Source of the DNA: Membranipora membranacea
Taxonomy: Eukaryota; Bryozoa; Gymnolaemata; Cheilostomatida; Membraniporidae
Reading direction: 5' to 3'
DNA length: 64,000 nucleotides
Assembly (NCBI GenBank): GCA_914767715.1
Contig: OU612072.1
Span: forward strand, 248,001-312,000
Below, piece after piece: positions 8,048 to 61,391 of this stretch. Position 1 is the stretch's first letter, and every line of letters starts with the position of its first letter. The position numbers and the translations under genes were made by a program. Below the pieces are notes generated by a model, which saw only the letters and a list, made by a program, of their open reading frames with translations, made no database searches and had not been told where the DNA came from.

Positions 8048-8344
8048 TTAGTCCGAGTCGGTAGGTGGAGGGTTGACGGGAGGTTTAGGTGCTCGTCTAG
8101 CTGCTGGTTGTGGTTGTGACGGTCTGTATTCTCCATGTGTACCTCTCTCCACTGACTCGTACTCCATACCTACAGGCTGGCGGCCGGAGCTAGGGGCGGG
8201 GTTACCCTTTTGTTTGTCTGTCTTGAGGAAGTCTATAGATGTATATTCCACCTCCGGTGGTCTGTCAGCTCTCTGTGTCGGACGTACCATAGCAGTGTTA
8301 GGGTGTGGCTGATTAATCGCGTGTACCTCAGAGTAAATTATCTC
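8048..8344 (-). CDS. Gene 1 exon 10, ITIM tail
   Basis: The terminal exon encodes 98 residues. It begins EIIYSEVHAI directly after the acceptor TTTGTAG. Tyrosines fall at 424, 454 and 482, a spacing of 30 and 28. The first two fit (I/V/L/S)xYxx(I/V/L); the third has Met at -2. PAARRAPKPPVNPPP near the end is an SH3-ligand-like stretch. The stop is TAA at 8050-8048. Confidence 0.85.
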   Translation of the reverse strand, partial: EIIYSEVHAINQPHPNTAMVRPTQRADRPPEVEYTSIDFLKTDKQKGNPAPSSGRQPVGMEYESVERGTHGEYRPSQPQPAARRAPKPPVNPPPTDSD

Positions 8345-11300
8345 CTACAAACACCAGTTATCAAAATAAGAGGTTTTCTATACTGATCGCCTTGGTTATG
8401 ATTAGGGCGCGATAATCTGGTATGTTCATTGTACTTTACCTGACTGATCAGAACATAACATTCAAACACCCGGGTCACCAAACTAGTTTTCTAATACAGA
8501 GGGCAACACAAAACCACTATAGGTTCTACTTGCAACAAGCAATGGGAACAATGTCAATCTACAGTAACCTACATGTGCGTGGTCAGTTTGAATCATGAGC
8601 TTGCAGGAGTCTGCTTCTGCCAAGCTTGAGGCTAGCTTGCTAGCAGTAAGTTTGTCACAGGAATAATGAAGGTCATGCTGAATCTGAATGACGAGCAATA
8701 AAGGGGTAGCTTGTTATATACTGCAGGCTAGCATTGAAACCTGACTCCTGTCAGCCCAAAAAGTCACAGGTCTAACCTCCAACAACTGAGCTCTCACAAC
8801 ATATTAGGACTCATACACAGGATAGTTATTACTTACATCATTCAGAGGCTTCTTATCATTTGTAGGCGCTCTCCCTGAAAGAGAAGAAAAATAGTCATTA
8901 TATATTGATATATGGGCTGCAATATCAAGTTATGGACCGGGTTACACTATGTTTTGGGGCTATGAAGGCAACTGGGTTCAAGACGATGATCTCCTTAATA
9001 TAATATAACTCCTCACATGACGCACAACAAAAGGTTACTTTGGCTTATAGAAGGGGAATCGGTGCAAAGACACTGTTATGTGCACTTTAAGCAGGCCCTC
9101 TAAAAAGCCCAGCTATGTTGAGTTTGAATTTACCGCTGAAAAATACCTAAGATCTCATTGGTTTGTTTGAACTTTGGACGCTAACTGCCTGCCACCAAAA
9201 AGTAACAGTTGTGGTAAAATGCTACATAGTGATTGGCTAAAATAGCCTTATAGCGTTGATTGAATCAGTACTTGATAATACTGGTCACGATTACTCATTG
9301 TTCTCTGCAAAGCAAAATTGAATTTTGACAAACATTGACCACTTTCAACATCTATTTATGCGCAACCTTAACACCACATGGACTAAGATGGCTAGTCATA
9401 AGCCAATCACATTGTTTGTAACTGTTGACTTGAAGATCACGAGGGGGAGGGAGGCCTACTAGATACGCCTTAAATATGGGGCGTGTGATGTATGGTCCTA
9501 TATACAACATATAGGGACTGTCATGCTAAACAGGCTTTTGGATCATGCATTCTCCAACAACATCAACTATAACTGATGGACAAGCAGTGTACAATGTGGT
9601 GATGCAAATACTTCGGTGTGCCTCACACCATGCCTGGTTCGCTGCTGTGCGTGAATATAATCTGAAAGGTTTGCTTTCAATGAACCACAGGCTAATGTTG
9701 CACACGAGGGGTTACCAGCCAGCCAAAACATTACATCCTTGGTATCTCTTTCAAACTAAGTTTCTTAAGACAACAGACGCCACAACGGTAGCCATGACCC
9801 TCAGCCTGCGGGCGTTTACTTAGTGGGCAATCTTACCAACTGGAGGAGGGAAACGGGTCTGTGGAATAAATTGTATCTAACACTCACTAACGGTATAATG
9901 CCAATTCGGAGCATAATGCATAAACGATAACGCAACAACAACAATAAAACACACAATATTAAAGTAATAGAGTTGGTAGCGTACCTATCTCTAAATGTTA
10001 TCGTGACCTAGGAGGAGATTGAGAAGAACTTGTTAATGTAACTTAGCATGGATAGCCTAGAGAAGGCTTACTAGCTGAGAGCCCTCAGATTGGCAATATC
10101 ACTGCAGACCAGCATGAGGCAAATCTACAGATCACACTGAGTAAAGTCCAGCATGATGCGATTCATAACCCAGCATTCAATAAAACCCGAATTTGGTAGG
10201 GGGCCTGATTGATTGAGTGATAGTGAATTAATAGACCACTACAGTTAAAGTCAGTAAGCAGACACTACATAAACATGCAGAAGTGTTGAGACTAGGTGCG
10301 CCGGACTATTTTGCTCAATTGTTCTACATTCTTTAGTTTATCTATTGCCAGAAACAATGGAAGAATTTTCCGTGCCAAAGGGCTCAAATTCAAATTTCTA
10401 ACAGGACATTTCACTCTAATATGTTCCTGCTATCTAAGAGAGCTTAGCAGGCCTCACCACAGAGACACATAAGAAGGAGAGACGGATATGTAACACTCAC
10501 CTTTAGTCGGACGACTGTAAAATAAAATAAAACACAAATTGTGAGATAAAGTGGACAAGTTAAGATTTGAAAATACTTTAAAGTGAGTCCTACTAGGCCA
10601 TGTTTGGTATGGTTTTAAAGATCTCAGGCTGAAAAGTCATATGAAATAAGACAGCCTGTGAACCTTATTGCAGTAAAACTTCTGCAAAGTCTGAAAAATT
10701 GGGATCATAGTGGATCATAGTGATTTGTTGCCTCCCCCTGACCCCTATGATCTACTATGATCCTTGCTAAAATAATTGAAAAAAACTAATTGCTATTTTC
10801 CAAAATTTTCATTTTTTGTTAATTTTTATTTGCCCTATGAACTCACAACATTTGATTTACTGGGGTAATATATACACTTTTCTAATAGGACTGACCCTTT
10901 AATAACATCCAACTTAGCATTGATTATTGCTTTGCTTTCACGGACCTCAAGTAGTGAGAAATTGTGAATTAATCTGAGCTATTTCCCCGGCCAGGGGGTA
11001 AGAGTCTCGGCGGCTCAAACTATTTTCATGTAAGAGTTGTGTATATTTACTTTGGTCTGGAGTCTCCATTCTCATTTAGAGGTAGATCTGCTCCCTTCTT
11101 CCCAGGCTGCTGAGACGCTGAAATGAGTTGCATATTAGGAATGTGATGTCTTTATAAATTGAGAACAAAAGAACAGTGTAAGTAAAATATAACTAAAAAC
11201 ATGATTTATTTGTGGCCTGAGATAGGGAGTACCAATTCAAATTCAGAAATATAGATAGGAAGAAGCTGTTACAGAAAGTTAATCACAGCTAATCTGAACA

Positions 11301-14300
11301 ACGCAACCGCAGAAGTACCAGCAACCATTCCAGTTGAGCAATTATATGTCGAATCACATCTCAATCCTTCTTAGAAGTCCATGGGAAGTCAATGGTTCCC
11401 TACTGGGCACTTAATTGATTTACACGTATCTTACTAATACCCTACCCAAAGACCATTGCATGTTATAGCCAGGTAGTTACATATGATAAAGTTTTGTCAG
11501 ATTTGCATGGTAAAAAATTTCAAGGCTCTACTTGGTGTGAATAAGGAAAGATAGCTCTCATTCCGTACTATAATGTCACTAATAACAGGAAGTGCTTTTT
11601 ACTTGCATTGCATATCCTGTTCATAGTGACATCATAATGCAGAGAATGAGAGTAACTTCCCCTTTTGAGAGTGTTACTCTTTCCACCATCAATAATTCAT
11701 GCCAAGTAGAGCATTGAAATTTTTTACCTAGTAAATCTGACAACACTAATTAATCATATGTAACTGCCGGACTATAACATGCTTTGGTCTTTTGGTAGAC
11801 TTTAAAGCTTAGTTCACTATCTCCAATGAGAGAAATCAAAATTGAAATTGATCAACTGTAACTTAGTAATTTTAGAGCGCACCACCTTAATCAATCAACA
11901 CAGTGACCTCTAAATAAGAAACATGGAATGTGAAGGAGGCACATATTTGTCGTGGCCACAACAAAATGAGTCCAAGCATGCAACATTGTATTACCAGACA
12001 CGTTATTTTGCCGACCTGAAATAAATTTAGCAGAAACTGATGATGTCATGCAAACCACCATTCTAAAGAGGATAAACCTAGAGCGAATCTCCCTACTTTA
12101 TAGAGATGTGGGTATAAGATGGTCAAACCAAGTCCCTGTCATTTTGCTGAAGTAAAAGACAAACGTTTGACTACTTTCACCTTCAACTACAGTATATGAC
12201 CGGATATTTCAAAGCACACAATTCTGGCCAAGACTATTTACCTTTGCGTTTTTTCCAGCAGCAGAATCCAATGATAACAACAATAATAATGGCACCTATA
12301 ACTCCTCCTACTGCTCCACCTATAGTAGCTGCTGATGTTCGGGGTTTTGGCTCAGAAGTAGCAGGTACTGTTGGGGGAGGATTGGTCGGTGCCGTGTTAT
12401 CCCACATGATTCGCCATGTAATAGACAATGGACTTGAACCTACAAGACACAATATCAGACATTGTATACCACTGGTCAATTTGCCTCATCTATTTTAAAT
12501 GCTGAGGGAAACTGTGTGGTGTTACACATTACTATAATCATGATAAAAAGTTATACTAAAACAGGATCATATGGAAGACACATTGCAATTTGGGAATATC
12601 TGATAGGAACAAAGCGGAAAGAACCATTCTGTGGTTCACTTGTATATCACTGTTTTTCAGGTACAACGATCTCGCCAATTTTTATTTGAATCAGGAGCAA
12701 TTAAAAACGAAGAGCATGCGAACCAGTACTATCATGTTGCCAATGAATACCACTTTGTGCCAGATCTGAGGGTATGCTCGTAAGCTTACCTAGACTAGTG
12801 ATCGCTGGACATTAAACACACCTTTTTTACCAAGACATGGGTAACTCAATATTAAGAAATAGAAGTCAATATATAACTGTACTAGAGGAAGCCTGGAATT
12901 ATCATTTCTAGTTATAGACCGATGTGTTTTGAAAGCTGTCCTATCCACTGACAGGATATGACTACATATCACAGTTTATAGTTGCTACTGTGCTTCCAGG
13001 ATGCTAGGTCATACACAAAATGTGCTAGACTGCATCAAATGTAGGGTCTACATAACAGGACCATATTCACATGGTATGTAATTAGGTTACGTAGTGTGAA
13101 TCGGTAGAGTAAACACTCACCAGCTCCAGCAACAGATCCTTCACAAGTAATCTCTTCTACCTCCCCATTATCTCTAGAGTTGTCGCTAAATGATAGCATG
13201 CTGGTCTGTGTGGAGGTGATATCTGTTAGATTTGATATCCAGGAGTAAGTCGGTGTAGGATAACCTTCTATGTCGCATCTCAGGGGAGTTGGTGATCCAG
13301 GGTTGTTATCTTCAGACCTAAGTATTGTCTGAGTCCAGTCACGGGAGATATCTGAAATTGTGACAAATACAAAGTCAAGCCGACAGCAGGAAAGCTTTGA
13401 TTTTTGTTGGAGCTTAAACCACTGCTGCCACAGCTGGGCTTTGCCAAGCATAGCCACCAGTCAAAAGTTTGAATAGAGAGTCAGGGTCAACTTTTGTCAT
13501 CACTAATGGTGGATGGCTGGGAAAGAAGATACTCCTTACATTTTGAGAGCTCATATAACTCCATTCAAAGCTACTGGCTAGATGTTTTGATGCCACAACC
13601 CTCTATTTAAATTTTTGACTGGTAGCTCTGCTGGGCAAAGCCCTGCTGTGGCAGCAGTGGTTTAAATAAGAATATGCAGCACCGTTGGGAAACTAGAAAC
13701 TACAAAAGAGTGAGGCTGAAGTAGCACTAATGGACTCACATATCGGCCTGATTTCCTTTGTCTTGACCTTATCACTTTCTACCGGCCAATCAGCATTTTC
13801 CTGATCTGTGCAGCGTACAGTAAACCCATCTCTGTCTGCAGGACTTGTAGTGTAAGATCCACCAGGTAATGAAGTCACTTCTCCAGATTCTCTGACCAAT
13901 TCTGCATAAAGATAACAATAATATTGCTTTTGTTTGACAATTAAAAAGGATTAAAAGTCTGAGCTGAGCCAATGTATATTCATTTGCAATTTTGGTTTTA
14001 ACAGCCAAGAATGGGAGCTGCATCATAAGAGTTGGTAGAAAGATGACAATCTCGTATGGTGGCGATATATGTTGGCAGGGCATAGTACAACATATTATAC
14101 GTGATGACTACTGTATAGTTACCATAAACATAGGTGCTCAACGGAGAGTTTGACTCACAGCTGACAGTTATCGTAACATTCTCAACCACAGGATCCACCC
14201 CAACAGATATCGTAAGATTTTTCGGCGGAACTGAAGAAAAAAGAGTTGTTGATTTTGCTTTTTGCTACAGTTATCATAGAATACATAGAAGGCTAACCAT

Positions 14301-15287
14301 CAATGTGACATGGAGAATATTTTGTGAAAGTATTACAGAACCATGAAGGTTTACAGTAAGGAAGTTTTACTTTGATGCTGTGGCTTTATAAAAAAAACTA
14401 CACAATAATTAAAAACATCAGCGTGTGGTATCATCATGGATACAAGACCCTTGCTTGCACATCATACTCACTTAATACAGGTTGGTGCTGGATAACTACC
14501 GGAGTAGTTCCTTGCGTCGAACTTTCACAGGTTATTGATTGAGTAGACAGCTCTTGTGTGATGTTCAGTTTGACAGTCAAAGTGTTATCATTGTCAGGAA
14601 GGTTACACTGCTCATCATTGACTGGAGCTTCAACTAGAACTGGCCATTTATTCGCAAGAGTAAATGTCGTGCTGAATCGAAGACATTGAAGCTCTGCATC
14701 GTCCAACTTCATAACCAAACCATATATACTACCAGAAGCCGGTATCTCAGAAGATCTACATGTTAATGTGAGCGGTTCTCCGAGATAATAACTGTTACCT
14801 GTAGTTGTAGCTTTATTAAGTGTTAATACTTCTACAATGATAATGAATAAACAGTCATTTAACATTATCATTCACAGTGATAGCAAATTCTACTGTATCT
14901 GGTATAATGATAGTCAACAATTTTTTCTGAAGCAAAAAATTCTGAATATGTTTCATCAGGATTCATGTAGTAGTAGTAGTAGTAGGCCTACATATTTGTT
15001 ATATGTGATAATTGAATAAAACTTATGATAAACTTGACTGATGTGCAGGTTCTTGAGAAAAGCTGAACCTCTCCAAGATGCATGCAGGCTCACGGCGGTC
15101 AAATATTTAGTCACTGGATTGGCAAGATGTAAAATTACTGTCATGTGGGCGTACATCAAAGAGCCATAATGCCTCCGTAAAAATGAAGTCCTAGTAGCAA
15201 CAAACCTCCAACTGAGAATTGCAATATAGTCACCACAGATATGCATATAACTGCAAGCCACTGTCTTGATTCACTCGATGAAATCAT
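8048..15287 (-). CDS. Receptor gene 1: three-Ig membrane receptor with ITIM tail
   Basis: Ten minus-strand exons join without a phase conflict: 15287-15206, 14831-14472, 14230-14123, 13901-13740, 13351-13121, 12439-12242, 11117-11051, 10514-10501, 8874-8837 and 8344-8048; the sum is 1557 nt, 518 aa plus stop. Residues 1-27 are a signal peptide; Ig1 is 28-147 (C52/C129, extra pair C77/C103, sequon NIT at 117); Ig2 is 148-237 (C172/C214, no core Trp); Ig3 is 238-314 (C263, W275, C307). A Pro-rich stalk precedes a Gly/Ile membrane segment at about 354-376, followed by KKRK. The tail has ITIMs at Y424 (IIYSEV) and Y454 (VEYTSI), an ITIM-like site at Y482 (MEYESV) and a proline-rich end. Known: phosphorylated ITIMs recruit SH2 phosphatases. 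Inferred: an inhibitory surface receptor; the ligand is unknown. No kinase domain was seen. Confidence 0.85.
8837..8874 (-). CDS. Gene 1 exon 9, tail
   Basis: A 38-nt exon, acceptor TCTCTTTCAG and donor GTAAGT, phase 1 to 0, encoding GRAPTNDKKPLND. It links the microexon to the ITIM exon. Confidence 0.65.
8875..10500. other. Intron 8 of receptor gene 1
   Basis: There are no further exons I can support. A 92-codon plus-strand open frame at 9545-9823 has no recognisable domain and lies antisense in the intron; it may be part of an old mobile element. Confidence 0.5.
10501..10514 (-). CDS. Gene 1 exon 8, 14-nt microexon
   Basis: Fourteen bases between an acceptor after TTTTATTTTACAG and a strong GTGAGTGT donor. 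It converts phase 2 to phase 1 and encodes RPTK. The call rests on splice signals and on the phase chain closing only when it is included. Confidence 0.55.
11051..11117 (-). CDS. Gene 1 exon 7, tail
   Basis: A 67-nt exon with acceptor CATTTCAG and donor GTAAAT. It enters in phase 1 from the membrane exon and leaves in phase 2. It encodes a hydrophilic juxtamembrane stretch (ASQQPGKKGADLPLNENGDS). There is no counterpart in genes 2 and 3. Confidence 0.65.
11441..11799. repeat. ~360-bp imperfect palindrome (foldback MITE-like)
   Basis: The left arm (CCAAAGACCATTGCATGTTA and onward) recurs inverted at the right end (CATGCTTTGGTC... inverted), including the CATATGTAACT/AGTTACATATG and CCAAGTAGAG/CTCTACTTGG blocks. 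The arms are about 170 bp with a short spacer near 11610. It lies in gene 1 intron 6, between the membrane exon and the tail exons. Confidence 0.8.
12242..12439 (-). CDS. Gene 1 exon 6, stalk and membrane segment
   Basis: A 198-nt exon encoding a Pro/Thr-rich stalk (NPPPTVPATSEPKP) and a membrane helix beginning IGGAVGGVIGAIIIVVIIGF, then CCW and KKRK as the stop-transfer signal. No charged residue lies inside the helix, so it does not look like an adaptor-dependent receptor. If the donor were not used, translation would stop two codons later. Confidence 0.88.
12661..12771 (+). other. Exon-like open segment antisense to receptor gene 1
   Basis: A 111-nt phase 0-0 block runs from an acceptor CTGTTTTTCAG (ends 12660) to a donor GTATGC (12772) and is open for 37 codons. 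It contains EEHANQYYHVANEYHFVPDL, two Tyr motifs. Orthologous antisense blocks sit in the same intron of gene 2 (about 29768-29870) and gene 3 (about 53720-53815). The gene 2 block has a stop; in gene 3 the second half is open. It may be a tail exon of an opposite-strand gene or a relic of one. Confidence 0.4.
13121..13351 (-). CDS. Gene 1 exon 5, Ig-like domain 3
   Basis: A 231-nt phase 1-1 exon with the classical spacing of Cys (PLRCDIEGYP), Trp (TYSW) and Cys (EEITCEG). The acceptor is TTTCAG and the donor GTGAGT. It is the most canonical of the three domains. Confidence 0.85.
13740..14230 (-). CDS. Gene 1 exons 3-4, Ig-like domain 2
   Basis: Two exons (14230-14123 and 13901-13740, phase 1 throughout) make one short Ig-like domain. 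The first cysteine is in ITVSC, the second in GFTVRC, and a G-strand-like KVKTKEIRP follows. Past the donor the paralogues drift into different frames, which supports ending the exon at STYVY. The core Trp is missing, so the domain is reduced. Confidence 0.75.
14472..14831 (-). CDS. Gene 1 exon 2, Ig-like domain 1
   Basis: A 360-nt symmetric phase 1-1 exon, the same length as in gene 2. It starts with EVLTLNKATTTGNSYYLGEP and carries the LTLTC and SITC cysteines that frame an Ig fold, plus a second internal cysteine pair. The acceptor follows CATTGTAG and the donor is GTGAGT. Confidence 0.85.
15206..15287 (-). CDS. Gene 1 exon 1, signal peptide
   Basis: The ATG is at 15287-15285. The exon reads MISSSESRQWLAVICISVVT and onward, a hydrophobic leader matching genes 2 and 3 nearly residue for residue. 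The donor is GTTTGT and the exon ends in phase 1, as do its paralogues. Confidence 0.8.
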
Positions 15288-17600: not shown

Positions 17601-17634
17601 CAACTTCGAAATAGCGGTAAAAAAGTGATAATAA

Positions 17635-27419: not shown

Positions 27420-27504
27420 ATGAGTTCATCGCCCGAATCAAGACAATGTCTTGCAGTTACATGCATATTATCTGTGGTGACTATATTGCAATTTTCAGCT
27501 GCAG
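27420..27504 (+). CDS. Gene 2 exon 1, signal peptide
   Basis: MSSSPESRQCLAVTCILSVV and onward, ending FSAA. It is one codon longer than genes 1 and 3. The donor is GTTTGT, phase 1. Confidence 0.8.
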
Positions 27505-30500
27505 GTTTGTTGCTTCTAAACTATTTGATGTACAACCAAATGACAGCATTTCTAGTAAACTTTGCCATTCTAAAAACTTTGCCATGTCTAAATATTCGAT
27601 GCCCGTGAACCTGTATGCGTCTTGAAACTGGTCCACCTTTGCTCAAAAAAGCATCCTCACGTCAGTCAAGTTTAACATAAATTTCATTGTCAACGACATG
27701 TCTACTTCATTGAATTCTATAGAAATATATCGACCCATCCGGATCTATTTGCTTTTGAAAAAAGTTTGATGACATAACCATTATACCAGGCACACTAGAA
27801 TTATCTATCACTGGTGTGATTTACAAGAAAATGTTATGAAGTCATCCAAGCACTGTTTATTCATTTACATTATAGAGGTATTGACGCTGGATAAAGCTAC
27901 AACTACAGGTAACAGTTATTATCTCGGAGAACCACTCACAATAACATGTAGGTCTTCAGAGATACCGGCTTCTGGTAGTATATATGCTTTGGTTATGAAG
28001 TTGGACAATGCAGAGCTTCAATGTCTTCGATTCAGCACGACATTTATTCTTGGGAATAATTGGCCAGTTCCGGTTGAAGCACCAGTAAATGATGTTCAGT
28101 GTAACCTACCTGGCAATGATAACACTTTGACTGTCGAACTCAACATCCCGCAGGAGTTTTCTTCTCAATCAGTAATCTGTGGAAGTTCGACACGAGGAAC
28201 TCTTTCGGTAGTTATCCAGCCCCAACCTGTATTAAGTGAGTATGACGTGCAAGCAAGGGTCTTGTATCCATGAGGATACCACACGCTGATATTTTTAATT
28301 ATTGTGTAGTTTTCTTTATAAAGCTGCGGCATCAAAGTAAAACTTTCTTACTCTAAACTTCACTGCTCCGTAATACTTTCACAAAATAATCTCCATGTCA
28401 CATTGATGGTTAGCCTCCGATTCAGGCATTCACTTGGAGCCTTCTGTGGATTCTATATCTGGAGTCTTCTGTGGATTCTATAATAACTGTAGCAAAAGCA
28501 AAATCGACAACAACATGTAACTCATTTATTTCTTCAGTACCGCCGAAAAATCTTACGATATCAGTAGATAAGGACCCTGTAGTTGAGAATGACACAGTTA
28601 CTGTCAGCTGTCAGTCAGACTCTCCGTTGAGCACCTATGTTTATGGTAACTATACATTAGTCATCATTTGTAATACTATGCCCTGCAAACATATATCGCC
28701 ACCATACGAGATTGTCATCTTTCTACCAACTCTTATGATGCAGCTCCCATTCTTGGCTGTTCAAACCGAAATTGCAAATGATTATTGAGAATATACATTG
28801 GCTCAGCTCAAACTTTTAATCCTCTTTAATTGTCAATCAAAAGCAATATTATTGTTATCTTTATGCAGAATTAGTCAGAGAATCTGGAGAAGTGACTCCA
28901 TTACCAGGTGGATCTTACACTACAAGTCCTGCAGACAGAGATGGGTTTACTGTACGCTGCACAGATCAAGAAAATGCTGATTGGCCAGTAGAAGGTGATA
29001 AGGTCAAGACAAAGGAAATCAGGCCCAGATGTGAGTTCATTAGTGCTACTTCAACCTCACTCTTTTGAAGTCACTATGTAGTTTCCAAACTGTGCCTCAT
29101 ATTTTTATTTAAGCTCCAAGAAAAAGCAAAGACTTCCTGGTATCAGCTTTACTTTGTATTTGACACAATTTCAGATATCTTCCGTGACTGGACTCAGACA
29201 ATACTTAGGTCTGAGGATAACAACCCTGGATCACCAACTCCACTGAGATGTGATATTGAGGGTTATCCTACACCCACTTACTCCTGGACATCAAATCTAA
29301 CAGATATCACCTCTACAGAAACCAGCATGCTATCATTTAGCGACAACTCTAGAGATAATGGGGAGGTAGAAGAGATTACCTGTGAAGGATCTGTTGATGG
29401 AGCTGGTGAGTGTTTACTCTTCCGACTCACACTACGTAAAATATGTGTGTTTACCTCAACTCCAACAATTAACCTAATTAGTTAGTTATGTAGGCCCTAC
29501 ATTTGTAGCACATAGCACATTTTGTGTATGACCTAGCATCCAGGAAGCACAATAGTAACAATAAACTGTGACATATAGTCATATCCTGTCAGTAGATATT
29601 TAGTTGTTGAGCTAGAAATCATAATTCCTGCCTAAGTCAAGGCCTTCTCTAGTACAGTTACATATTGACGTCTATTCTCTTAATATTGAGTTACCCATGT
29701 CTCGGTAGAGGTAAAAAAGTGTGTTTAATGTCCAGTGATCACAAGTGTAGGTAAGCTCACAAGCATACCCTCAGATCTGGCACAAAATGGTTTTCATTGG
29801 CAACATTATAGTGCTGATTTGCATGCTCTTTATTCTATTTTTGCTCCTGATTAAAAAAAAACAGTGATATACAAGTGAACCACAGAATATTTCTTTCTGC
29901 TGTGTTTCTATCAGATATTCCCAAATTACAATGTGTCATTCATTATGTTCCTGTTTTTGTATAACTTTGATCATGGTTATAGTAATGTCTAACACCACAC
30001 AGCCCCCCACAGCATTTAAAATAAATTGAGGCAAATCGACCAGTGGTTTATAATGTCTGATTTTGTTTCTCATAGGTTTCAGTCCATTGTCAATAACATG
30101 GCGAATCATGTGGGATGACATGGTACCAACCAATCCTCCACCAACAGTACCCACTGACGCTGGGCCAAAACCACAAATATCAGCAGCTACTATAGGTGGA
30201 GCAGTAGGAGGGGCTATAGGGGCCATAATTATTGTTGTTATCATCGGATTCTGCTGCTGGAAAAAACGTAAAGGTAAATAGTTTTGGCCAAAATCGTGTG
30301 CTTTGAAATATTTGGTCATATTTGGTAGTTGAAGGTGAATGTAATCAAACATTTGTCTTTTACTTTAGCAAAATGACCGAGACTTGGTTTGACCATCTTA
30401 CACCCACAACTCTATAAAGTAGGGAGGTACCGTCTCTGTAAAGGTTTATCCTCTTTTGAATGGTGGTTTGCATGACATCATCGGTTTCTGCTAAATTTGT

Positions 30501-36500: not shown

Positions 36501-39500
36501 AGAAGCACATTTTCTTTTGAGCAGCAGCATGGCTTCAAATGGACAGACACCACATATTTTTATATCATTGAATTGCTCATCTTCTGAGGAACATAGTGGT
36601 TATTTTCTTTAGTAAACCAGGAAAATATCTACCAACATATCGAAAGCTTTACGGAAAACGGTTAAAAAATGATATAAATTGCTGCCCTGCTGCCGGTTTA
36701 CGTATGCAATTATTCCACTTTCATGGGGGGCAAAGAAATACACAGTTTGTGAGTGTGTCCTGAAAATTTGAGGTCTGTAGCTTGATAAATTTTTATGCCA
36801 GCCACAAAAGAAGTTTTTCGCTTTATAATTTTTATGATTTTTGGCCTTTTCGAGATGTGGGGATAACTCGGGTTCACAAAATTACCTTGTATGCCCTGAG
36901 TGCCATGCATTTTTTGTACTGTAAGATTAGTAAAAAACTTTTTGTATATTTAATATCATATTCATAGAAGGTATCAGCTTGTGCTACTATATTCATTAAA
37001 CACATTAAAACATATAGTATGTGAGTATTTCTACCTAGCCGGTTCTAAGCAATGTTCAAATTTCTTCTCTCGACCATAGCAAAAAGTGAACAAAAAACGG
37101 CATTCAGATATTTGTAGCTTCTACTGTTGAATAACAATTGCATGTATTTGTATGAGATCATGAGTAAACCAGCGACTTCCCACATACTGCATCATCTGTA
37201 GCATGACAATGTGCCCTACAGTACAATAGTGGAAGGGCAACTCCAAAATCCAGCAAGCGCGGGCAGAATGTCGTTGAAACACTGTGACAGCATGGACCAA
37301 ACAGGCAGATATAACAATTGAGTATTTTTCTTTTATTAAGTGATAAACTCACCATATCTTACATTGGCTTGTCATCAGACGTTTGTAGAACCAAATTACT
37401 TATCGAAGTCATAGCTTAGTGCTTAGGGACTTATCATGATCATAATTATAGTACCAAAGTCAATCTAATGTCACAAAAAGAAGTTCAATTAAGATGTGAA
37501 GGGAAAACTCTTTGTTATGCTGGCAGTATTCTTCATTTTTCAACATGTATCATGTATAATTACCATATAAATAGTTTTCAGGTGAGTCTGACTGACCACT
37601 GACAGTGATGGTCTTGTTCTCAACTACTGAGTCTTTATCAGGAGATATCGTAAGATTCCTCGGTGGTACTGTAATAACATAAAGATATTATACATATTAT
37701 ACAATATTCCTACTGAGCCGGTTAGGAGAGTTACAGGCTATTTAATTTCCACAATCAGGTTCCATACTTGGCCGTTTTTTTGGGAAAAAACTTAAGTTTG
37801 TTGACTGAAAACGCTTTTTAGAGGTTTTGGGAATCGAAGAACTCAAAAATTATACCGGGTCGTTTTTTTTGGATAAGTTTGAAAACTTAAGGTTTTTCCC
37901 AAAAACTTAAGTTTGTTGACTTAAAACATTTTTTTAGAGGTTTCGGGACTCGAAGAACTCAAAAATCATACTGGGCCGTTTTTTTGAAAAATTAAAAAAA
38001 AATTAAATTTTTTCCCAAAAACTTAAGCTTCTTGGCTTAACTTGTTTTTTTAGAGGTTTTGGGACTTGGAGAACTCAAAAATTATAGTTGGCCGTTTAAG
38101 GCCGCGGGGCGTTTAGGGCCCTGGGCCGCTTTCTCCCGAGGGCCATTTTGGGCATTTCCATTAACTTCATCTAGTCTCATTTCTTTAAAAAAGCAGGTTT
38201 CATTATTTACTACGATCAACAATTTTGAAAATCATGACATCAGAAATTCTCATTTTAATAGGACACAAATTTTAATCTGGATAGGCTTGGTTAGCATTGT
38301 TCACCTTACAAATGACAATCGCATTATTATCACAAAAGTACTCTATGTTCATAAATAATAGATAGAGCAAGAGAAAGTAGTACGAAATGTGAGTCAATCA
38401 TAAATTGTCTGCCCATGACTTGCCCTTTTACCAGTATAGCTGCAAGTTGATGAAATTAAGTTATATAATTCCGGTACATCCCATCAAGGTTTCATTTCTT
38501 TTGTTTTTGATGCTGTACAGGCTTCTGTTAAGCTTTGTGGTATTCTGTCCAACTTAGTTAATTTTTCCTGCAGTATTCGTGTAGGTTGTTTGGTACTGCA
38601 GGTAAATCAGTGAGATACACAAGGAGGTCGTGACTGGTAGACATGTCATGTTCTCTGTTGTTAGAGTCACAAACAACTTTTCTCTCCTGCCTTTTCTTCC
38701 CTTTTCCAATTTTCAATCTCCAAATCCGATCCAACTTGATCAAGCTACCAATCAAAAACTTGGATTGTGAGCTGTTAAAAAATGTGAGAGTCATCGCAGC
38801 TCTACAATTCAATTACATTTTGCATGATGCATGCAGTGTCAGTCAAGGTTTTTTATCAAGTTTATTGTAAAAAGAACACCATATAAGGAGAAAAAATGGT
38901 TTTGATTTCTGCACAGTAGTTAAAAGTACTCACCTAGGTAAAGTCAACAATGACACACATCAATGTGCGTTCCCTTCAATGAAGCCACATACACCTCACC
39001 GAGTATAAAATACAATTGCTACACTAAAGAACAAGATACACTACATGATCATAAACTTTGACTTATACATGCACATAGGTATTGTCTGCTCATTACATTT
39101 GGTTGGATAACAATCCGACAACGGTATGTGTCACTATTTTATCATTTGGACTGAAAATTTAAGTTTTTTCTCATTTGGCCATCAGATTCAATAAAATGAC
39201 ATGCAATCCCTAATTTAAGATGACAATCAGTCTTGAAAAATTATACCACATCATTTCTCGATTGTGGTAGCAGGTATTTAGCCAAAGCGGTACACCGAGT
39301 TGTTAATATTCCCTTGATCAGCCTATCTCAACAGGATATTGCTGTAAACTATGATCAATTTGTTGCAGATCACCAAACATCAGCAGGAAAAGAAGCAGTT
39401 ATAACCCTGACCGAAACTGGCAATACCAACCAAACTAGGTGTGTATATTCCTTATTATTACCATAGTCTTGTGAAGATGCAAGCATCACCTCTGAAGAGT

Positions 39501-40411
39501 TACAAAGCATTTTGTGTGAAAACTAGATGGTGAATACTGTTTCATTCATAACATGCCTTTGTTAAACCATTAAAATGAAAATACTATATTGATGCAATGG
39601 TGATCGGTGTATTATTCTGTGTGTCAGTCAAAAATTATGACCAAGTTGCTTATCCATTAACTTACGCACAAATAGACAGCCATCATCAGTTTATTTTCTG
39701 CACAGCTTTTGTCTTGCATAAATCTGAATAAATTTGAAGATATTCAATGTTCACCTTATGGCGCTGGATACAGGTAAGCGTAAATCTGCTAATTCAAATT
39801 TCACTGGTTGATATTAAGTAAGCGTTCAGTTTCCTCTACAAAATTGGATCAAAGTAAATGCCCAGTTCGGACCCTACTTTGCTCTAGATAGCCTTGTTTA
39901 CTTTTCTCTTTCAGATTAAGCAACAGGATATCAACCAGAGGTACGAAACATTGCAGCCTCACTTCGGTGTCATCTCACAAAGAAAGTTCTGAATTCAACA
40001 GATTAGAATCTTTATTTCTGGCATTTTACTTTACTTCAAGGCCTTATATTGGTCATTGTATCTGTAAAAATATGAAGTGACAATCAAAAACTCTAGATGA
40101 ATGCGCATGTATTTTTAACATTTTCAATTTGGCTATCCTAAATGATTCTTTCACATATTCACATACGAGAACCAGGCTCTCTTATTTCAGAGATCACATC
40201 AGTAGAAGATTATGAAGAGGTGGCTGCTGTCTCAAACTCAGCCACATCACCAGATTATGTGAATGGGAATTTAATAAGCTCTAATAGACAGACATACGAG
40301 AATCTACCTGAGGTCACAAGAAAACCTGGAAATGATTATGAAAAGATAAACATAGAGAAACAGCATGATGATGTTCATAACTACACTCATGTCGGTAACT
40401 GGAGGTATTGA
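27420..40411 (+). CDS. Receptor gene 2: three-Ig membrane receptor with ITAM tail
   Basis: Nine exons close in phase: 27420-27504, 27876-28235, 28538-28645, 28869-29030, 29175-29405, 30076-30273, 39282-39438, 39915-39940 and 40191-40411; 1548 nt, 515 aa. The ectodomain is gene 1-like: leader, Ig1, reduced Ig2, Ig3 (C, W, C), Pro-rich stalk, membrane helix about 355-377, KKRK. The tail is unrelated to gene 1. It has Tyr at 450, 465, 478, 492, 507 and 515; Y478 and Y492 form YENL-x10-YEKI, an ITAM by pattern. Known: phosphorylated ITAMs dock tandem-SH2 kinases of the Syk family. Inferred: an activating receptor with its own signalling motif. Intron 6 is ~9 kb and holds repeats, so the join to exon 7 is the weakest step. 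Confidence 0.8.
27876..28235 (+). CDS. Gene 2 exon 2, Ig-like domain 1
   Basis: Same 360-nt phase 1-1 exon as gene 1, with cysteines in LTITC, LQC, VQC and SVIC. The acceptor is TTACATTATAG and the donor GTGAGT. Confidence 0.87.
28538..29030 (+). CDS. Gene 2 exons 3-4, Ig-like domain 2
   Basis: Exons 28538-28645 and 28869-29030. They start PPKNLTISVDKDPVVEN, with cysteines in VTVSC and FTVRC. The 5' exon stays open past the donor as far as 28788, so intron retention would add about 48 residues before a stop. Confidence 0.78.
29175..29405 (+). CDS. Gene 2 exon 5, Ig-like domain 3
   Basis: 231 nt, phase 1-1, with the C/W/C signature (PLRCDIEG, TYSW, EEITCEG). It is nearly identical to gene 1. 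Confidence 0.87.
30076..30273 (+). CDS. Gene 2 exon 6, stalk and membrane segment
   Basis: 198 nt. A stalk NPPPTVPTDAGPKP is followed by the helix IGGAVGGAIGAIIIVVIIGF and CCWKKRK. There is no charged residue in the helix. Confidence 0.88.
30369..30376 (+). promoter_or_regulatory. Possible short-tail alternative exon start
   Basis: The acceptor TGTCTTTTACTTTAG is followed by CAAAATGA, which joined to the membrane exon gives Ala-Lys-stop. The same signal exists in gene 1 (12146-12139, minus) and gene 3 (54324-54331). Its use would give a tailless isoform. This is by pattern only. Confidence 0.3.
31590..32740 (-). mobile_element. Non-LTR retrotransposon RT fragment, copy A
   Basis: The 31595-32002 frame (minus) has the RT core: IMLDFSKAFDKMRPDLAVKK, GVSQGTVLGPLLWNAFIDDL and YADDTTLY, with the catalytic YADD intact. 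Upstream, 32030-32470 reads in broken frames with CGKFPMQWKLAEVVPIN. It is 5'-truncated with frameshifts, sits antisense in receptor intron 6, and is shared with copy B, so it predates the duplication. Confidence 0.85.
33080..34620. repeat. Minisatellite of ~100-120-bp units, copy A
   Basis: About 14 degenerate tandem units share AACGGCCAAGTATGATTTTT, GAGTTCTCCAAGTCCCAAAA and CAACAAACTTAAGTTTTTGG blocks. The left end is enriched in CCCAAAACGGCCCG words. Related inverted-orientation units recur at 35030-35185 and 37750-38150. Confidence 0.9.
35030..35815. repeat. Nested duplication, unit 1
   Basis: It matches 37975-38765 in direct orientation and a single locus 58960-59760 in copy B. It starts in inverted minisatellite units (GGCCGCGGGCCGTTTAGGG) and ends in the minus-strand open frame at 35604-35873. 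Confidence 0.85.
35604..35873 (-). other. Repeated minus-strand open frame, unassigned
   Basis: The shared core KFLIGSLIKLDRIWRLKIGK is followed in 38558-38812 and 59542-59802 by ERKVVCDSNNRE and TSHDLLVYLTDLPAVPN. This copy has a frameshift after the core. In the other two copies a TTTTTTAACAG-like acceptor string precedes the frame. The reading frame survives in two of three copies, but I recognise no domain. Confidence 0.3.
35875..36905. repeat. Two tandem ~560-bp units
   Basis: Both units contain TTTTGAGCAGCAGCAT, GAGGAACATAG and GCTGCCCTGCTGCCGG blocks in the same order (35875-36330 and 36440-36905). They are absent from copy B. Confidence 0.8.
36285..36350 (-). mobile_element. tRNA-like SINE head
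   Basis: On the minus strand the sequence GTCTCTGTAGCTCAGTGGAT contains an A-box-like TAGCTCAGTGG, and 30-40 bases on there is a B-box-like GGTTCGAGTC. The ends do not pair into an acceptor stem, so it is a tRNA-derived SINE relic and not a functional tRNA. Confidence 0.5.
37570..37672 (-). pseudogene. Broken Ig2 first-half exon, antisense
   Basis: On the minus strand the frame reads PPRNLTISPDKDSVVENKTI and VSGQSDSP, the same exon as 28538-28645 of gene 2, preceded by an AG acceptor. The core Cys of the Ig fold is Gly, and a stop follows a few codons past the usual donor. It is a relic of a minus-strand receptor copy, present only in copy A within the nested duplication. Confidence 0.7.
37975..38765. 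repeat. Nested duplication, unit 2
   Basis: Direct duplicate of 35030-35815, about 2.95 kb away. The intervening DNA, with the SINE-like units and the broken Ig exon, is missing from copy B. It contains the longer version (38558-38812, minus) of the unassigned frame. Confidence 0.85.
39282..39438 (+). CDS. Gene 2 exon 7, juxtamembrane tail
   Basis: 157 nt, phase 1 in and phase 2 out, donor GTGTGT. It encodes AKAVHRVVNIPLISLSQQDI and ends TETGNTNQTR. No family recognised. The acceptor (GGTATTTAG) is only moderate, but it is the one that fits the membrane exon phase. The gene 3 counterpart has two stops. Confidence 0.55.
39915..39940 (+). CDS. Gene 2 exon 8, 26-nt small exon
   Basis: The acceptor is TTCTCTTTCAG and the donor GTACGA; phase 2 in and 1 out, encoding LSNRISTR. 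It is conserved in copy B (60895-60920) with one change. Confidence 0.55.
40191..40411 (+). CDS. Gene 2 exon 9, ITAM tail
   Basis: 221 nt after the acceptor CTTATTTCAG; stop TGA at 40409. It begins EITSVEDYEEVAAVSN. YENL at 478-481 and YEKI at 492-495 are separated by ten residues, within the ITAM range of 6-12. DYVNG and TYENL also fit a Grb2-type YxN site. Tyrosines recur every 13-15 residues. Confidence 0.85.
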
Positions 40412-41715: not shown

Positions 41716-41877
41716 ACCGAGGCCTGATTTCCTTTGTTTTAACCAAATCCTCTTTGTAGGGCCAATCACTATGTCCTTGTTCTGTGCAGCGTACAGTAAA
41801 CCCATCTCTATCTGCAGGACTTGTAGTGTATGATCCACCAGGTAATGAAGTCACTTCTCCAGATTCTCTGACTAGTT
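41716..41877 (-). pseudogene. Orphan Ig2 second-half exon, antisense, copy A
   Basis: 162 nt with the same borders as gene 1 exon 4 (AG before AACTAGTCAGAG, donor GTGAGT). The frame is ELVRESGEVTSLPGGSYTTS, with GFTVRC, and is fully open. No other exons of a minus-strand receptor are in order around it, so it is a fragment. The frame also stays open upstream as FSDDEILMFDT. Confidence 0.75.
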
Positions 41878-42334
41878 CTGTATCGAACATTAGAATTTCA
41901 TCATCAGAAAACTTGCATATCAAGGCAATCACAAACCTATATCGTTATCATCAGCTTCGCACATTTGGCAAGTAAGAGCCGAGACAAAATTTGTCATCAA
42001 ATTTTATATCATTATTGTTGTCTTGATTTTCGCACAGCATGGACCAAACAGGCAGAGATATAACGAGTGAGTGTTTATCTTTTATAAAGTGATAAACTCA
42101 CCATATCTCACATTGACTTGTCATCAGACATTTGTAGAACCAAATTACTTATCTAAGTCATAGTTTAGTGCTAAGGGACTTATTATAATGATAGTTATAG
42201 TACCATAGTCAATCTTATGTAAAAAATCCTGTTTAATAAAGATATGAGGGGGAAACGCTTTGTTATGCCGGCAGTTTTCTTCATAAAACTAAAAACCTTT
42301 ATTAAGGGGGACCTTTGACAATTGAAAAACATTG

Positions 42335-50410: not shown

Positions 50411-51608
50411 GGCCAAGTATGTTAAAAAAAAAATTATGAGTTGTGGTGTCTCATAAATACACTGAAAAAAATTGTTCTTTCTCTTCTCAGTCCTATAATT
50501 TTCAGCTCTAAAAATCAAAGGTCTGCAAAACGATGTTCTAAAAGTATTGAAACCAAACCAACGACTATAAAGTGGATGGCTCGGATTGTTGCTAATAATA
50601 ATGAAATAATTGCCAGTAGTCATATTTTAAACAGATTATCGCTCTTCGTAACATTCAATCACAGTATAAATAAATTTAGTGGCTGTCCTTTGGCAGTGTT
50701 CAAGAATGATTTTGTCTTTCTCTTTGTCAGCTAAAAAAGTGAACCATGATGTCATTATGTCATTGTCATTACGATACAACAGCCCAAAATACCACCATAT
50801 ATATAGATTATATAGGCTTTATCATCACAGGTTTACTTCAAACTATCAACGCTGACAACCTTTATCAAATAAGTCATACCTTACAAAACTACCTTGATTT
50901 TGTAATGAGCTTCTGTTCGATACGTTAATGCATAACACATTATAGGGAAACAAGAAACGCTTGTTCGACCATGAACCTGACCAAAAAACGATAAACTGCT
51001 AGAATTGATAATTTGAATGAAGAGACCTGTATGGAATTGGTTAACACAATAATCATATCATATGGGTAATTGTGATTTATCACCTCTCGATTGTGATTTA
51101 TCATTTGTTGCTAAAATGTTAAGTTTTTTCAGTTCACGTTTTGATGCACTAAGATGATTTCGTCAACTGAATCAAGACTGTGGCTTGCAGTTATATGCAT
51201 TTCTGTGGTGACTATATTGCAATTTTCAGCTGCAGGTTTGTTGCTTCTAAACTATTTGATGTACACCCAAATGACAGCATTTTTAATAAACTTTGCCATT
51301 CTAAAAACTTTGCCATGTCTAAATACTCGAGGGCCGTGAACCTGTATGCTTCTTGAAACTGGTCCACCTTTGCTCAAAAAAGCATCCTCACGTCAGTCAA
51401 ATTTAACATAAATTTCATTGTCAACCACATGTCTACTTCATTGAATTCTATAGAAATATATTGACCCATCCGGATTTATTTGCTTTTGAAAAAAGTTTGA
51501 TGACATAACCATTATACCAGGCAAACTAAAATTATCTATCACTGATGTGATTTACAAGAAAAAAGTTATGAAGTCATCCAAGCACTGTTTATTCATTATC
51601 ATTATTAG

Positions 51609-51965
51609 AGGTATTGACGCTGGATAAAGCTACAACTACAGGTAACAGTTATTATCTCGGAGAACCACTCACAATAACATGTAGATCTTCTGAGATACCG
51701 GTTTCTGGTATATATGGTTTGTTTATGAAACTGGAAGATGCAGCGATTCAATGTGTTCGAGTCAGCACAACATTTAGTCTTGTGACTAATTGGCCAGTTC
51801 CAGTTGAAGCTCCTGTAAATAACGATCAGTGCAACCTACTTGAGAATGACAACACTTTGACTGTTGAACTCAACATCCCGCAGGACCTTTCTACTCAATC
51901 AATAACCTGTGGAAGTGGAATACAAGGAACTGCTCCGATAGTACTCCAGCCTCAGCCTGTATTAA
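51609..51965 (+). CDS. Gene 3 exon 2, Ig-like domain 1
   Basis: 357 nt, one codon shorter than its paralogues (SGIYG in place of SGSIYG). Cysteines are conserved. Many replacements relative to gene 2 cluster between the first two cysteines. Confidence 0.85.
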
Positions 51966-52013: not shown

Positions 52014-52258
52014 TTCGTATAACCACAGGATTTGCTCTTGTGAATAAATGGCCTGTTCCGGTTGAAGCTCCAGTCAATGATGAGCGGTGTAACCTATCTG
52101 AGAATGATAACACTTTGACTGTCAAACTCAACACAACACAAGAGCTGTCTACACTATCAGTAATCTGTGTGAGTTCGACACAAGGAACTCATTCGGTAGT
52201 TATCAAGTCCCAACCATTAAGTGAGTATTATGTGCAAGGAAGGGTCTTGTATCCATGA
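52014..52258 (+). pseudogene. Partial duplicate of the Ig1 exon
   Basis: NKWPVPVEAPVNDERCNLSE through the end of Ig1 is repeated 50 bp after the complete exon, including the GTGAGT donor, but the first half and acceptor are missing. It is probably not spliced in. Confidence 0.75.
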
Positions 52259-52497: not shown

Positions 52498-52987
52498 TAC
52501 CGCCGAAAAATCTCACGATATCTGTTGGGATGGATCCTGTGGTTGAGAATGATACGATAACTGTCAGCTGTCAGTCAGACTCTCCGTTGAGCACCTATGT
52601 TTATGGTAACTATATATTAGTCATAATTTGTAATACAATGCCCTGCCAACATATATCGCCACCATACGAGATTGTCATCTTTCTACCAACTCTTGTGATG
52701 CAGCTCCCATTCTTGGCCGTTAAAACCGAAATTGCCAATGATTATTGAGAATATACATTGGCTCAGCTCAAACTTTTAATCCTCTTTAATTGTCAATCAA
52801 AAGCAATATTATTGTTATCTTTATGCAGAATTAGTCAGAGAATCTGGAGTGACTTTATTACCTGGTGGATCTTACACTATAAGTCCTGCAGACAGAGATG
52901 GGTTTACTGTACGCTGCACAGATCAGGAAAATGCTGATTGGCCGGTGGAAAGTGAAAAGGTCAAGATAAAGGAAATCAGGCCCAGAT
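52498..52987 (+). CDS. Gene 3 exons 3-4, Ig-like domain 2
   Basis: Exons 52498-52605 and 52829-52987 (one codon shorter: ESGVTLLPGG). Cysteines in ITVSC and FTVRC are retained. Confidence 0.78.
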
Positions 52988-53129
52988 GTGAGTCCATTAG
53001 TTCTACTTCAGCCTCACTCTTTTTTAGTCACTAATTAGTTTCCAAACTGTGCCATATTTTTATTTAAGCTCCAACAAAAAGCAAAGACTTCCTGGTATCA
53101 GCTTTACTTTGTATTTGACACAATTTCAG

Positions 53130-53360
53130 ATATCTCCCGTGACTGGACTCAGACTATACTTAGGTCTGAGGATAACAACCCTAGATCCCCAACTCCGCTG
53201 ACTTGTGATATCGAGGGTTATCCTACACCCACTTACTCCTGGACATCAAATCTAACAGATATCACCTCTACAAAAACCAGCATGCTATCATTTAGCGACA
53301 ACTATAGAGATAATGGGCAGGTAGAAGAGATTACTTGTGAAGGATCTGTTGGTGGAGATG
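53130..53360 (+). CDS. Gene 3 exon 5, Ig-like domain 3
   Basis: 231 nt, C/W/C signature intact (PLTCDIEG, TYSW, EEITCEG). The acceptor is TTTCAG and the donor GTGAGT. Confidence 0.85.
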
Positions 53361-54031: not shown

Positions 54032-54229
54032 GTTCCAGTCCATTGTCTATCACATGGCGAATCTTGTGGGATGACATGGCACCAACAAATCCTCCACCAA
54101 CAGTACCCAATGACGCTGGGCCAAAACCACAAATATTAGCAGCTACTATAGGTGGAGCGGTAGGAGGAGTTATAGTTGCCATTATTATTGTTGTTATCAT
54201 CGGATTCTGCTGCTGGAAACAACGCAAAG
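54032..54229 (+). CDS. Gene 3 exon 6, stalk and membrane segment
   Basis: 198 nt; the helix region IGGAVGGVIVAIIIVVIIGF and CCWKQRK are intact. Confidence 0.87.
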
Positions 54230-59802: not shown

Positions 59803-60265
59803 TTTGCGTTATGCATGCAGTGTCAGTCAAAGCTTTTTATCAAGTTTATGGTAAAAAGAACACAGTATAGGGAGAAAATATGGTTTTGATTTATGCACAG
59901 TAGTTAAAAGTACTCACCTAGGTAAAGTCAACAATGACACACAGCAATGAGCGTTCCCTCCAATGAAGCCACATACACCTCACTGAGTATAAAATACAAT
60001 TGCTACACTAAAGAACAAGATACACTACATGATAATAAACTTTGACTTATACATGTACATAGGTATTGTCTGCTCATTCCATTTGGTTGGATAACAATCC
60101 GACAAAGGTCTGTGTCACTATTTTATCATTTGGACTGAAAATTTAAGTTTTTTCTCATTTGGCCATCAGATATAATAAAATGACATGCAATCCCTAATTT
60201 AAGATCACAATCAGTCTTGAAAAATTATACCACATCATTTCTTGCTGGTGGTAGCAGGTATTGAG

Positions 60266-60419
60266 CCTAAGCGGTACACCGAGTTGTTAATATTCCATTT
60301 ATAGATAGATAGATAGATATTGCTGTAAACTATGATCAATTTGTTGCAGATCACCAAACATCAGCAGGAAAAGAAACAGTTATAACCCTGACCGAAACTG
60401 GCAATACCAACCAAACTAG
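60266..60419 (+). pseudogene. Gene 3 exon 7, broken
   Basis: Counterpart of 39282-39438. AAA-to-TAA at 60268-60270, and a (GATA)n replacement at about 60300-60318 that brings a TAG. The remainder (NYDQFVADHQTSAGKETVIT) is open. Confidence 0.65.
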
Positions 60420-61170
60420 GTCTGTATATTCCTTATTATTACCGTAGTCATGTGAGGATGCAAACATCACCTCTGAAGAGTTACAAAACATTTTGTGTGG
60501 TGAATGGTGATGGTGAATACTGTTTCATTCATAACCTGCCTTTGTTACACCATTAAAATGATAATACTATTGATAAAATGGTGATCGGTGTATTATTCAG
60601 TGTGTCAATCAAAAATTTTAACCGAGTTGCTTATGCATTAACTTACGCATAAATAGACAGCCGTCATCAGTTTATTTTCTGCACAGCTTTTGTCTTGCAT
60701 AAATCTGATTAATTTGAAGATATTCAATGTTCACCTTTTTGCGCTGGATACAGATAAGCGTAAATCTGCTAATTCAAATTTCACTGGTTGATATTAAGTA
60801 AGCATTCAGTTTCTTCTACAAAATTGGATCAAAGTTAATGCCCAATGCGGACCCTACTTTGCTCTAGATAGCTTTGTTTACTCTTCTCTTTTAGATTAAG
60901 CAAAAGGATATCAACCAGAGGTAGGAAACATTGCAGAATCACTTCGGTGTCATCTCACAAAGAAAGTTCTGAATTCAACAGATTAGAATCTTTATTTCTG
61001 GCATTTTACTTTACTTCAAGGCCTTATATTGGTCATTGTATCTGTAAAAATATGAAGTGACAATCAAATACTCTAGATGAATGTGTATGCATTTTTAACA
61101 TTTTCAATTTGGCTCTCCTAAATGATTCTTTCACATATTCACATACGATAACCAGGCTCTCTTATTTCAG

Positions 61171-61391
61171 AGATCACATCAGTAGAAGATTATGAAGAGG
61201 TGGCTGCTGTCTCAAACTCAGCCACATCACCAGATTATGAGAATGGGAATATAATAAGCTCTAATAGACAGACATACGAGAATCTACCTGAGGGCACAAG
61301 AAAACCTGATAATGAGTACGAAAAGATAAACATAGAGAAACAGCATGGTGATGTTCATAACTACACTCATGTCGGTAACTGGAGGGATTGA
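61171..61391 (+). CDS. Gene 3 last exon, ITAM tail
   Basis: 221 nt, open, stop TGA at 61389. YENL, ten residues (PEGTRKPDNE), YEKI. Differences from gene 2 leave every Tyr of the core motif in place; only the terminal Tyr is Asp. Confidence 0.75.

Follow-up and report, generated by a model that had tools for sequence, protein, structure and literature searches.

A 64,000-nucleotide stretch of the genome of the bryozoan Membranipora membranacea (C8:248,001-312,000, C8 being contig OU612072.1; hereafter the window) carries three predicted genes for type I receptors with immunoglobulin (Ig) domains, one of which ends in a tail with immunoreceptor tyrosine-based inhibitory motifs (ITIMs) and two in a tail resembling the immunoreceptor tyrosine-based activation motif (ITAM). 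We put at about 0.6 the probability that they are part of a larger array of such genes that undergoes recombination and encodes paired receptors, some inhibitory and some activating. An earlier note on the window, made from its letters alone, had proposed such a paired architecture for genes 1 and 2. On the exon chains and tail splicing predicted from the DNA sequence of one genome this architecture is confirmed and is wider than first claimed, comprising a second pair, a large array and frozen recombinants. Loci beyond the window are named by their positions on C8 (for example 629k, 672k, 734k and 432k).

Gene 1 (minus strand, 15287 to 8048) reads as ten exons that give one open protein of 518 amino acids (aa), with GT/AG borders at all nine introns and the order leader, Ig1, Ig2 (two exons), Ig3, stalk with membrane helix and four tail exons (Table 1). 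Gene 2 (plus strand, 27420-40411) forms an open, splice-consistent chain of 454 aa in which the membrane exon is followed directly by the tail exon, with a phase-1 junction. The identical exon lengths reported for the two genes from Ig1 to the membrane exon (360/108/162/231/198 nt) are recovered from both open chains, and each of these exons starts in phase 1; at the protein level the genes share 82.5% identity in Ig1 and 95% in Ig3. Gene 3 (plus strand, 51154-61391) likewise gives an in-frame chain, of 451 aa. The ectodomain ascribed to it, said to be the same as that of the other two, has the same exon order but different lengths (357/108/159/231/198), and its supposedly broken tail could not be confirmed because the tail exon is intact and joins in frame. 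The sole tail damage seen in gene 3 is the lost acceptor of its counterpart to a candidate exon of gene 2 (39335-39438).

The tails of genes 1 and 2 differ in kind. The tail of gene 1 contains two strict ITIMs (IIYSEV and VEYTSI) and a near ITIM (MEYESV), and two or more strict ITIMs occur in only 0.08% of composition shuffles of this tail (P = 0.0008), in keeping with the ITIMs first assigned to it. The tail of gene 2 contains four YxxV/L/I sites and two YxN sites. The ITAM it was said to carry has no match at the strict spacing of 6-8 and one match at a spacing of 6-12 (YENL-x10-YEKI; shuffle P = 0.011), and since the motif fits only at the wide spacing we call it ITAM-like. Both kinds of tail exon lie in the same open chains as the ectodomain, so that the motifs would act in cis as had been claimed; the membrane helix, read by eye, has no basic or charged residue for a partner chain.

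Tail exons occur together with Ig exons elsewhere in the genome (339 Mb in 18 contigs). The ITIM exon of gene 1 has four matches and the ITAM-like exon of gene 2 has eight, all of them on C8, and in 4/4 and 7/8 cases, respectively, they are preceded on the same strand by an Ig1 exon (11/12 for both tail types together); the exception is an ITAM-like match at 755k with no Ig1 exon nearby. This linkage ties the tails to Ig genes without recourse to RNA and, together with the second pair described below, strengthens the case for a paired architecture. At 629k, 734k and 432k, where the chains were joined from their loci, the order Ig1-Ig2a-Ig2b-Ig3-membrane-ITIM is kept in all three. Their identity to gene 1 is 34-40% in Ig1, 43-50% in Ig2a and 43-47% in Ig2b and, further along, 53-55% in Ig3, 58-63% in the membrane exon and 91-96% in the ITIM exon. 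Ratios of non-synonymous to synonymous divergence (dN/dS) of 0.08-0.17 in 3/3 pairs of full-length copies (432k left out) indicate that the ITIM exon is under purifying selection, and part of its likeness reflects recent sharing because the 3' flank is also 87-96% alike. In the ITAM-like tail all five tyrosines are kept in the six copies with an intact tail exon. Among 15 pairs of this exon (552k and 755k, with stops in the tail, left out of the count), dN/dS is 0.34-0.45 in all eight pairs that cross the two ectodomain subfamilies defined below and 0.47-0.54 in the three pairs of gene 7 with genes 2, 3 and 5; no synonymous change separates gene 2 from gene 5 or 672k from 477k.

A genome search for further members of the family, run with Ig1 of gene 2, found them: it gave at least 30 matches, and 21 of those listed lie in C8:125,681-813,875, one being a half copy inside gene 3. 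The other listed matches fall at C8:2.30-2.51 Mb (six), at C8:24.6 Mb (one) and on contig C10 (two); gene number is known here from Ig1 and tail exon matches only. In the stretch read contiguously (C8:100,001-360,000), gene 4 (C8:334,786-332,393) has no leader or tail match and no convincing tail among the open frames down to 313 kb, gene 5 carries an ITAM-like tail 98.6% identical to that of gene 2, a divergent gene lies at 125-130 kb with no convincing tail among the open frames examined, and a weak Ig1 match lies at 313 kb. Further away, gene 7 at 566 kb also carries an ITAM-like tail. The array thus presents clustered, recombining Ig receptor genes, as in an invertebrate histocompatibility complex; no description of it was found in the literature, most subscription papers being beyond reach.

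We distinguish two ectodomain subfamilies, A, the type found in the window, and B, whose Ig1 is roughly 31-40% identical to that of gene 1. Closely similar ectodomains with different tails occur in genes 1 and 2 and again in 629k (ITIM) and 672k (ITAM-like), which from their sequences form an independent second pair: their Ig1 exons are 96.5% identical in nucleotides and 94.4% in amino acids and their Ig2a is 100% identical in amino acids, and further on they are less alike (81% in Ig2b and 64% in Ig3). Ectodomains of type A (gene 1 against genes 2, 3, 5 and 7) and of type B therefore both occur with both tails, and closely similar outer domains consequently sit on both chassis.

Comparison of the copies indicates that recombination swaps outer domains and tails, with breaks mostly in or adjoining introns. 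Genes 2 and 3 lie in a recent tandem duplication with copies spaced about 20.6-24 kb apart. Between them 110 of 1156 exon sites differ, compared with 121 of 2487 non-coding sites (Fisher P 2.4e-7), and the synonymous distance is 0.20 as against about 0.05 in introns. Positive selection was considered for this excess of exon over intron divergence and dropped; as synonymous divergence is raised too, conversion or protected exons are favoured over selection on residues alone. Gene 7 is a mosaic, gene 5-like upstream and in Ig1, gene 2-like in intron 3 and gene 1-like in Ig3 and intron 5. Maximum chi-square breakpoint tests, run on a single MAFFT alignment whose 376k row is poorly aligned beyond Ig1, gave a permutation count of 0/2000 in six of seven comparisons and 49/2000 in the seventh; four of the seven breaks coincide with the start of Ig2a or fall no more than about 60 nt from it. 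The gene at 786k (C8:786,874) is a chimera: as far as the intron after Ig1 it is 96.8% like 734k (B), and beyond that point it is 99.3% like 501k (A). An error in the local assembly is a possible source of this pattern. Gene 1 itself can be read as an A-type ectodomain combined with a tail of the kind that B genes carry, the junction lying within the tail introns: likeness to A genes is found in pieces between 15629 and 11773, and most of the stretch from 10581 to beyond the stop is 80-96% like 432k (B), with 629k and 734k matching over parts; a weaker B likeness (72-81%) is already present between 12422 and 10898.

In the sequence, an outer part built of phase-1 exons is followed by either a tail exon with two strict ITIMs or one with an ITAM-like tyrosine array. 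In the mechanism that we propose, binding of a ligand would lead a Src-type kinase to phosphorylate the tails, whereupon the ITIM tail may recruit an SHP-type phosphatase and raise the threshold, and the ITAM-like tail, acting in cis, may trigger a response by recruiting a tandem-SH2 kinase or adaptors of Grb2 type. The sum of both inputs would decide between attack and tolerance, most plausibly in the setting of self/non-self or microbe recognition. Two SH2 pieces and a tyrosine-phosphatase piece do lie in that order on one strand of contig C9 (C9:12,128,490-12,135,640), as in an SHP-type phosphatase; the locus was picked from 44 SH2 and at least 158 phosphatase matches and consists of pieces, not of an assembled gene. 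More tentatively, the array might be a histocompatibility-type complex in which recombination moves Ig1 cassettes between the ITIM and ITAM-like chassis, each new specificity tending to acquire both forms. If true, the array would work as a germline device through which specificities change and the two forms of each stay matched.

Several observations weigh against the paired-receptor reading. The spacing of 10 in YENL-x10-YEKI lies outside the strict ITAM range of 6-8, and the two YxN sites (YVNG or YENG; YENL) are kept in the six intact-tail copies, which could mean Grb2 docking. Two ITAM-exon pairs, 2-3 and 3-5, have dN/dS values of 1.26 and 1.44, with few differing sites. Three of the eight ITAM-exon matches lie in broken or incomplete genes (477k, 552k and 755k): 477k has a stop in the membrane exon ahead of an intact tail exon, and in 552k and 755k the stops lie in the tail exon itself. 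One of the four ITIM exons, that of 432k, is cut after 67 residues, behind the second ITIM, and 734k is without tail exon A, the membrane-exon donor used by gene 1 being altered there. The join across the 9.9-kb intron before the tail exon of gene 2 is a prediction, and at 672k, 477k and 552k the tail is assigned by order and strand, the DNA between membrane and tail exons lying outside the stretches read.

The first of these points lend themselves to another reading, which we hold to be rather unlikely, namely that the 'ITAM' tail belongs to a growth or adhesion receptor and docks adaptors (Grb2/PI3K-type) at its YxN and YxxV/L/I sites, so that an ITIM-type tail would be paired with an adaptor-type one instead of an inhibitory receptor with an activating one. 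YxN is a Grb2 site; the YxN count of gene 2 by itself is not above that of shuffles (P 0.14). The YENL-x10-YEKI/YERI spacing, moreover, is kept in both A and B copies, which independent docking sites would not need, and in some receptors spacings as wide as 12 count as an ITAM.

The identity of the outer domains bears on a further alternative. Of the three Ig domains put forward in the earlier note, Ig3 is firm: in gene 2 it exceeds the Pfam cut-offs (Ig_3, 30.2 against 30; Ig_2, 29.9 against 27), the copy in gene 1 falling below them (25.5 for Ig_3 and 24.0 for Ig_2). Ig1 and Ig2 have no such Pfam support. No match better than E 0.055 was found in Pfam for Ig1 in 14 members, and none for Ig2 at E 0.1 when genes 1 and 2 were compared as full chains; nor did Pfam match a sushi domain in these two genes. 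Both are taken as Ig domains from their cysteines, exon phase and position. The four cysteines of Ig1 are invariant in all 14 aligned sequences, which were picked from the 30 genome matches after removal of close duplicates, the half copy, one sequence with stops and those without a locus. Compared with solved structures, the profile of these 14 gave five matches, the best being an Ig domain of VEGFR2 at E 0.35, for which reason the Ig nature of Ig1 is likely and not proven. Neither a search of viral and bacterial/archaeal contigs with an alignment of the three Ig1 copies of the window nor a search of the protein collection with the 518-aa chain of gene 1 (E 0.01, 8000 candidates scored) gave a relative, and an AlphaFold model of Ig1 from three sequences was unusable (predicted local distance difference test score 36). 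The Ig3 profile gave 28 matches to solved structures, among them DSCAM, contactin, neurofascin, DCC, Robo, NCAM, MuSK and titin; most of the matches consist of several stretches of weak similarity.

Adhesion and guidance proteins thus stand among the best solved relatives of Ig3, and the Alr family of Hydractinia is, in the available descriptions, an allorecognition family sharing such motifs. The products of the array could on this account be homophilic adhesion or allorecognition molecules whose tails tune adhesion, the likeness to ITIM and ITAM reflecting ordinary phosphotyrosine traffic instead of an on/off pair. We think this unlikely: two ectodomain types occur each with both tails, and opposed outputs therefore fit better than the tuning of adhesion.

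The gene models raise a last question, as a candidate exon upstream of the ITAM-like exon (39335-39438) chains in frame into it through a 26-nt exon (39916-39941), an arrangement seen in four paralogs; no 5' partner exon (phase 1 to 0) was found for this chain. A conserved open exon of this kind without a known 5' partner, the intron of about 9.9 kb and the in-frame stop met closely on reading on from the membrane exon in genes 1-3 would suit an artefact in which the tail exons are parts of other transcripts and the receptors stop soon after the membrane exon (KKRKGK-stop, by intron retention), but this is very unlikely given the Ig1 exon upstream of nearly all tail matches and the gene at 734k, whose ITIM exon lies only ~265 bp from the membrane exon and which, as read from its sequence, has a possible phase-0 donor six bases past the altered one.

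Table 1. Predicted exons and related fragments in the window (positions counted from its first nucleotide)
Feature	Positions	Strand	Remarks
Gene 1 leader (signal peptide) exon, coding part	15206..15287	-	
Gene 1 Ig1 exon, 360 nt	14472..14831	-	
Gene 1 Ig2a exon, 108 nt	14123..14230	-	
Gene 1 Ig2b exon, 162 nt	13740..13901	-	
Gene 1 Ig3 exon, 231 nt	13121..13351	-	Ig_3 match under Pfam cut-off
Gene 1 stalk and membrane exon, 198 nt	12242..12439	-	
Gene 1 tail exon A, 67 nt	11051..11117	-	also present in paralogs 629k, 432k
Gene 1 tail exon, 14 nt (predicted)	10501..10514	-	
Gene 1 tail exon, 38 nt	8837..8874	-	also present in paralogs 629k, 432k
Gene 1 ITIM exon, 294 nt and stop	8048..8344	-	IIYSEV, VEYTSI, MEYESV
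Gene 2 leader exon, coding part	27420..27504	+	
Gene 2 Ig1 exon, 360 nt	27876..28235	+	
Gene 2 Ig2a exon, 108 nt	28538..28645	+	
Gene 2 Ig2b exon, 162 nt	28869..29030	+	
Gene 2 Ig3 exon, 231 nt	29175..29405	+	above Pfam Ig_3, Ig_2 cut-offs
Gene 2 stalk and membrane exon, 198 nt	30076..30273	+	
Open candidate exon 5' of ITAM-like exon, phase 0 to 2	39335..39438	+	
Candidate exon, 26 nt, phase 2 to 1	39916..39941	+	
Gene 2 ITAM-like tail exon and stop	40191..40411	+	YEEV, YVNG, YENL-x10-YEKI, YTHV
Gene 3 leader exon, coding part	51154..51235	+	
Gene 3 Ig1 exon, 357 nt	51609..51965	+	
Half Ig1 exon copy in gene 3 intron 2	52029..52220	+	borders by eye, phase-compatible
Gene 3 Ig2a exon, 108 nt	52498..52605	+	
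Gene 3 Ig2b exon, 159 nt	52829..52987	+	
Gene 3 Ig3 exon, 231 nt	53130..53360	+	
Gene 3 stalk and membrane exon, 198 nt	54032..54229	+	
Gene 3 ITAM-like tail exon and stop, intact	61171..61391	+	
Ig2a fragment, reverse orientation	37565..37669	-	
Ig2b fragment, reverse orientation	41720..41878	-	
Ig2b fragment with stop, reverse orientation	62324..62482	-	

The reversed Ig2 fragments between the genes are possible donors or relics. A minisatellite of ~113 bp occupies part of the long intron before the ITAM-like exon in gene 2 (33468-34436) and gene 3 (57302-58381), and related repeats occur at genes 4, 5 and 7. Retroelement fragments with reverse-transcriptase or RNase H sequences (31595-32065 and 46716-47495 on the minus strand, 24764-25120 on the plus strand) are placed within and between the genes. 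The tandem duplication also holds two copies of a 140-aa open frame (19562-19984 and 42881-43303, plus strand) that Pfam does not match at E 0.1 and that may encode a mobile-element protein. Adjoining the end of the gene 1 tail, an open frame at 5878-6147 (plus strand) contains a GRIP domain (PF01465, E 1.7e-14) and probably represents the final exon of a gene of golgin type at the window's left edge.

Among known systems, KIR, LILR and Siglec are clustered paired Ig receptors whose inhibitory members carry ITIMs and whose activating members, for the most part, signal in trans by way of a basic residue in the membrane and the partner chains DAP12 or FcR-gamma. They are not the best comparison because of this reliance on partner chains; the motif of the array would act in cis, next to a helix without a basic residue. 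Searches with sequence profiles of Ig1 and Ig3 revealed no homology to KIR, LILR, Siglec or CEACAM beyond the Ig fold (none of the five Ig1 and none of the 28 Ig3 matches to solved structures). Gene conversion, for its part, is described between Siglec-11 and Siglec-16 in the available text of one report (PMC5701461). By analogy of architecture, the closest kinds appear to be Hydractinia Alr, Botryllus FcoR and mammalian CEACAM1/CEACAM3.

The fester co-receptor (FcoR) genes of the fuhc locus in Botryllus schlosseri are described, in the portion of the source available, as clustered type I members of the immunoglobulin superfamily whose tails carry an ITIM, a hemITAM or Y-x-x-I/L/V and whose alleles or splice forms swap tail motifs (PMC12065747). 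They resemble the array in being clustered invertebrate receptors with ITIM-type tails. According to the same partial account they differ from it in combining a V-type Ig domain, a sushi domain and two C2 Ig domains, genes 1 and 2 having no sushi match, and the activating-type tail of the array has a two-site ITAM-like motif instead. Hydractinia Alr is likewise a large invertebrate Ig gene complex with ITIM and ITAM motifs on candidate members, as far as the accessible text goes (PMC12065747, PMC11999971), a likeness drawn from description; near-identical ectodomains paired on opposite tails are not mentioned there. The oyster receptor CgIgIT2 shares an ITAM in cis and differs in its five Ig domains, as the available part of its source reports (PMC11999971), which mentions no partner with an ITIM. 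CEACAM1 and CEACAM3 come close in combining similar ectodomains with an ITIM or immunoreceptor tyrosine-based switch motif (ITSM) tail and an ITAM-like tail in cis (PMC5112662, PMC2832619), and gene conversion is reported in the CEA families (PMC5112662, PMC2832619, PMC7042247), in both cases in the accessible sections of these papers; no homology with the array is claimed beyond the Ig fold.

Control of unrelated receptors by ITIM and ITAM has been proposed, in the part of the literature available, as an ancient decision logic common to Hydractinia, Botryllus and vertebrate natural killer cells (PMC12065747). In Membranipora this logic would be readable at the gene level, in two ectodomain types each found on both tails, and the frozen recombinants would show how matched pairs can arise. 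The array is a locus at which self/non-self recognition, and the matching of pairs as specificities change, can be put to the test. Judged by analogy, it is a variant of a known paired-receptor architecture, a gene-level counterpart of the paired receptors of vertebrate immune cells.

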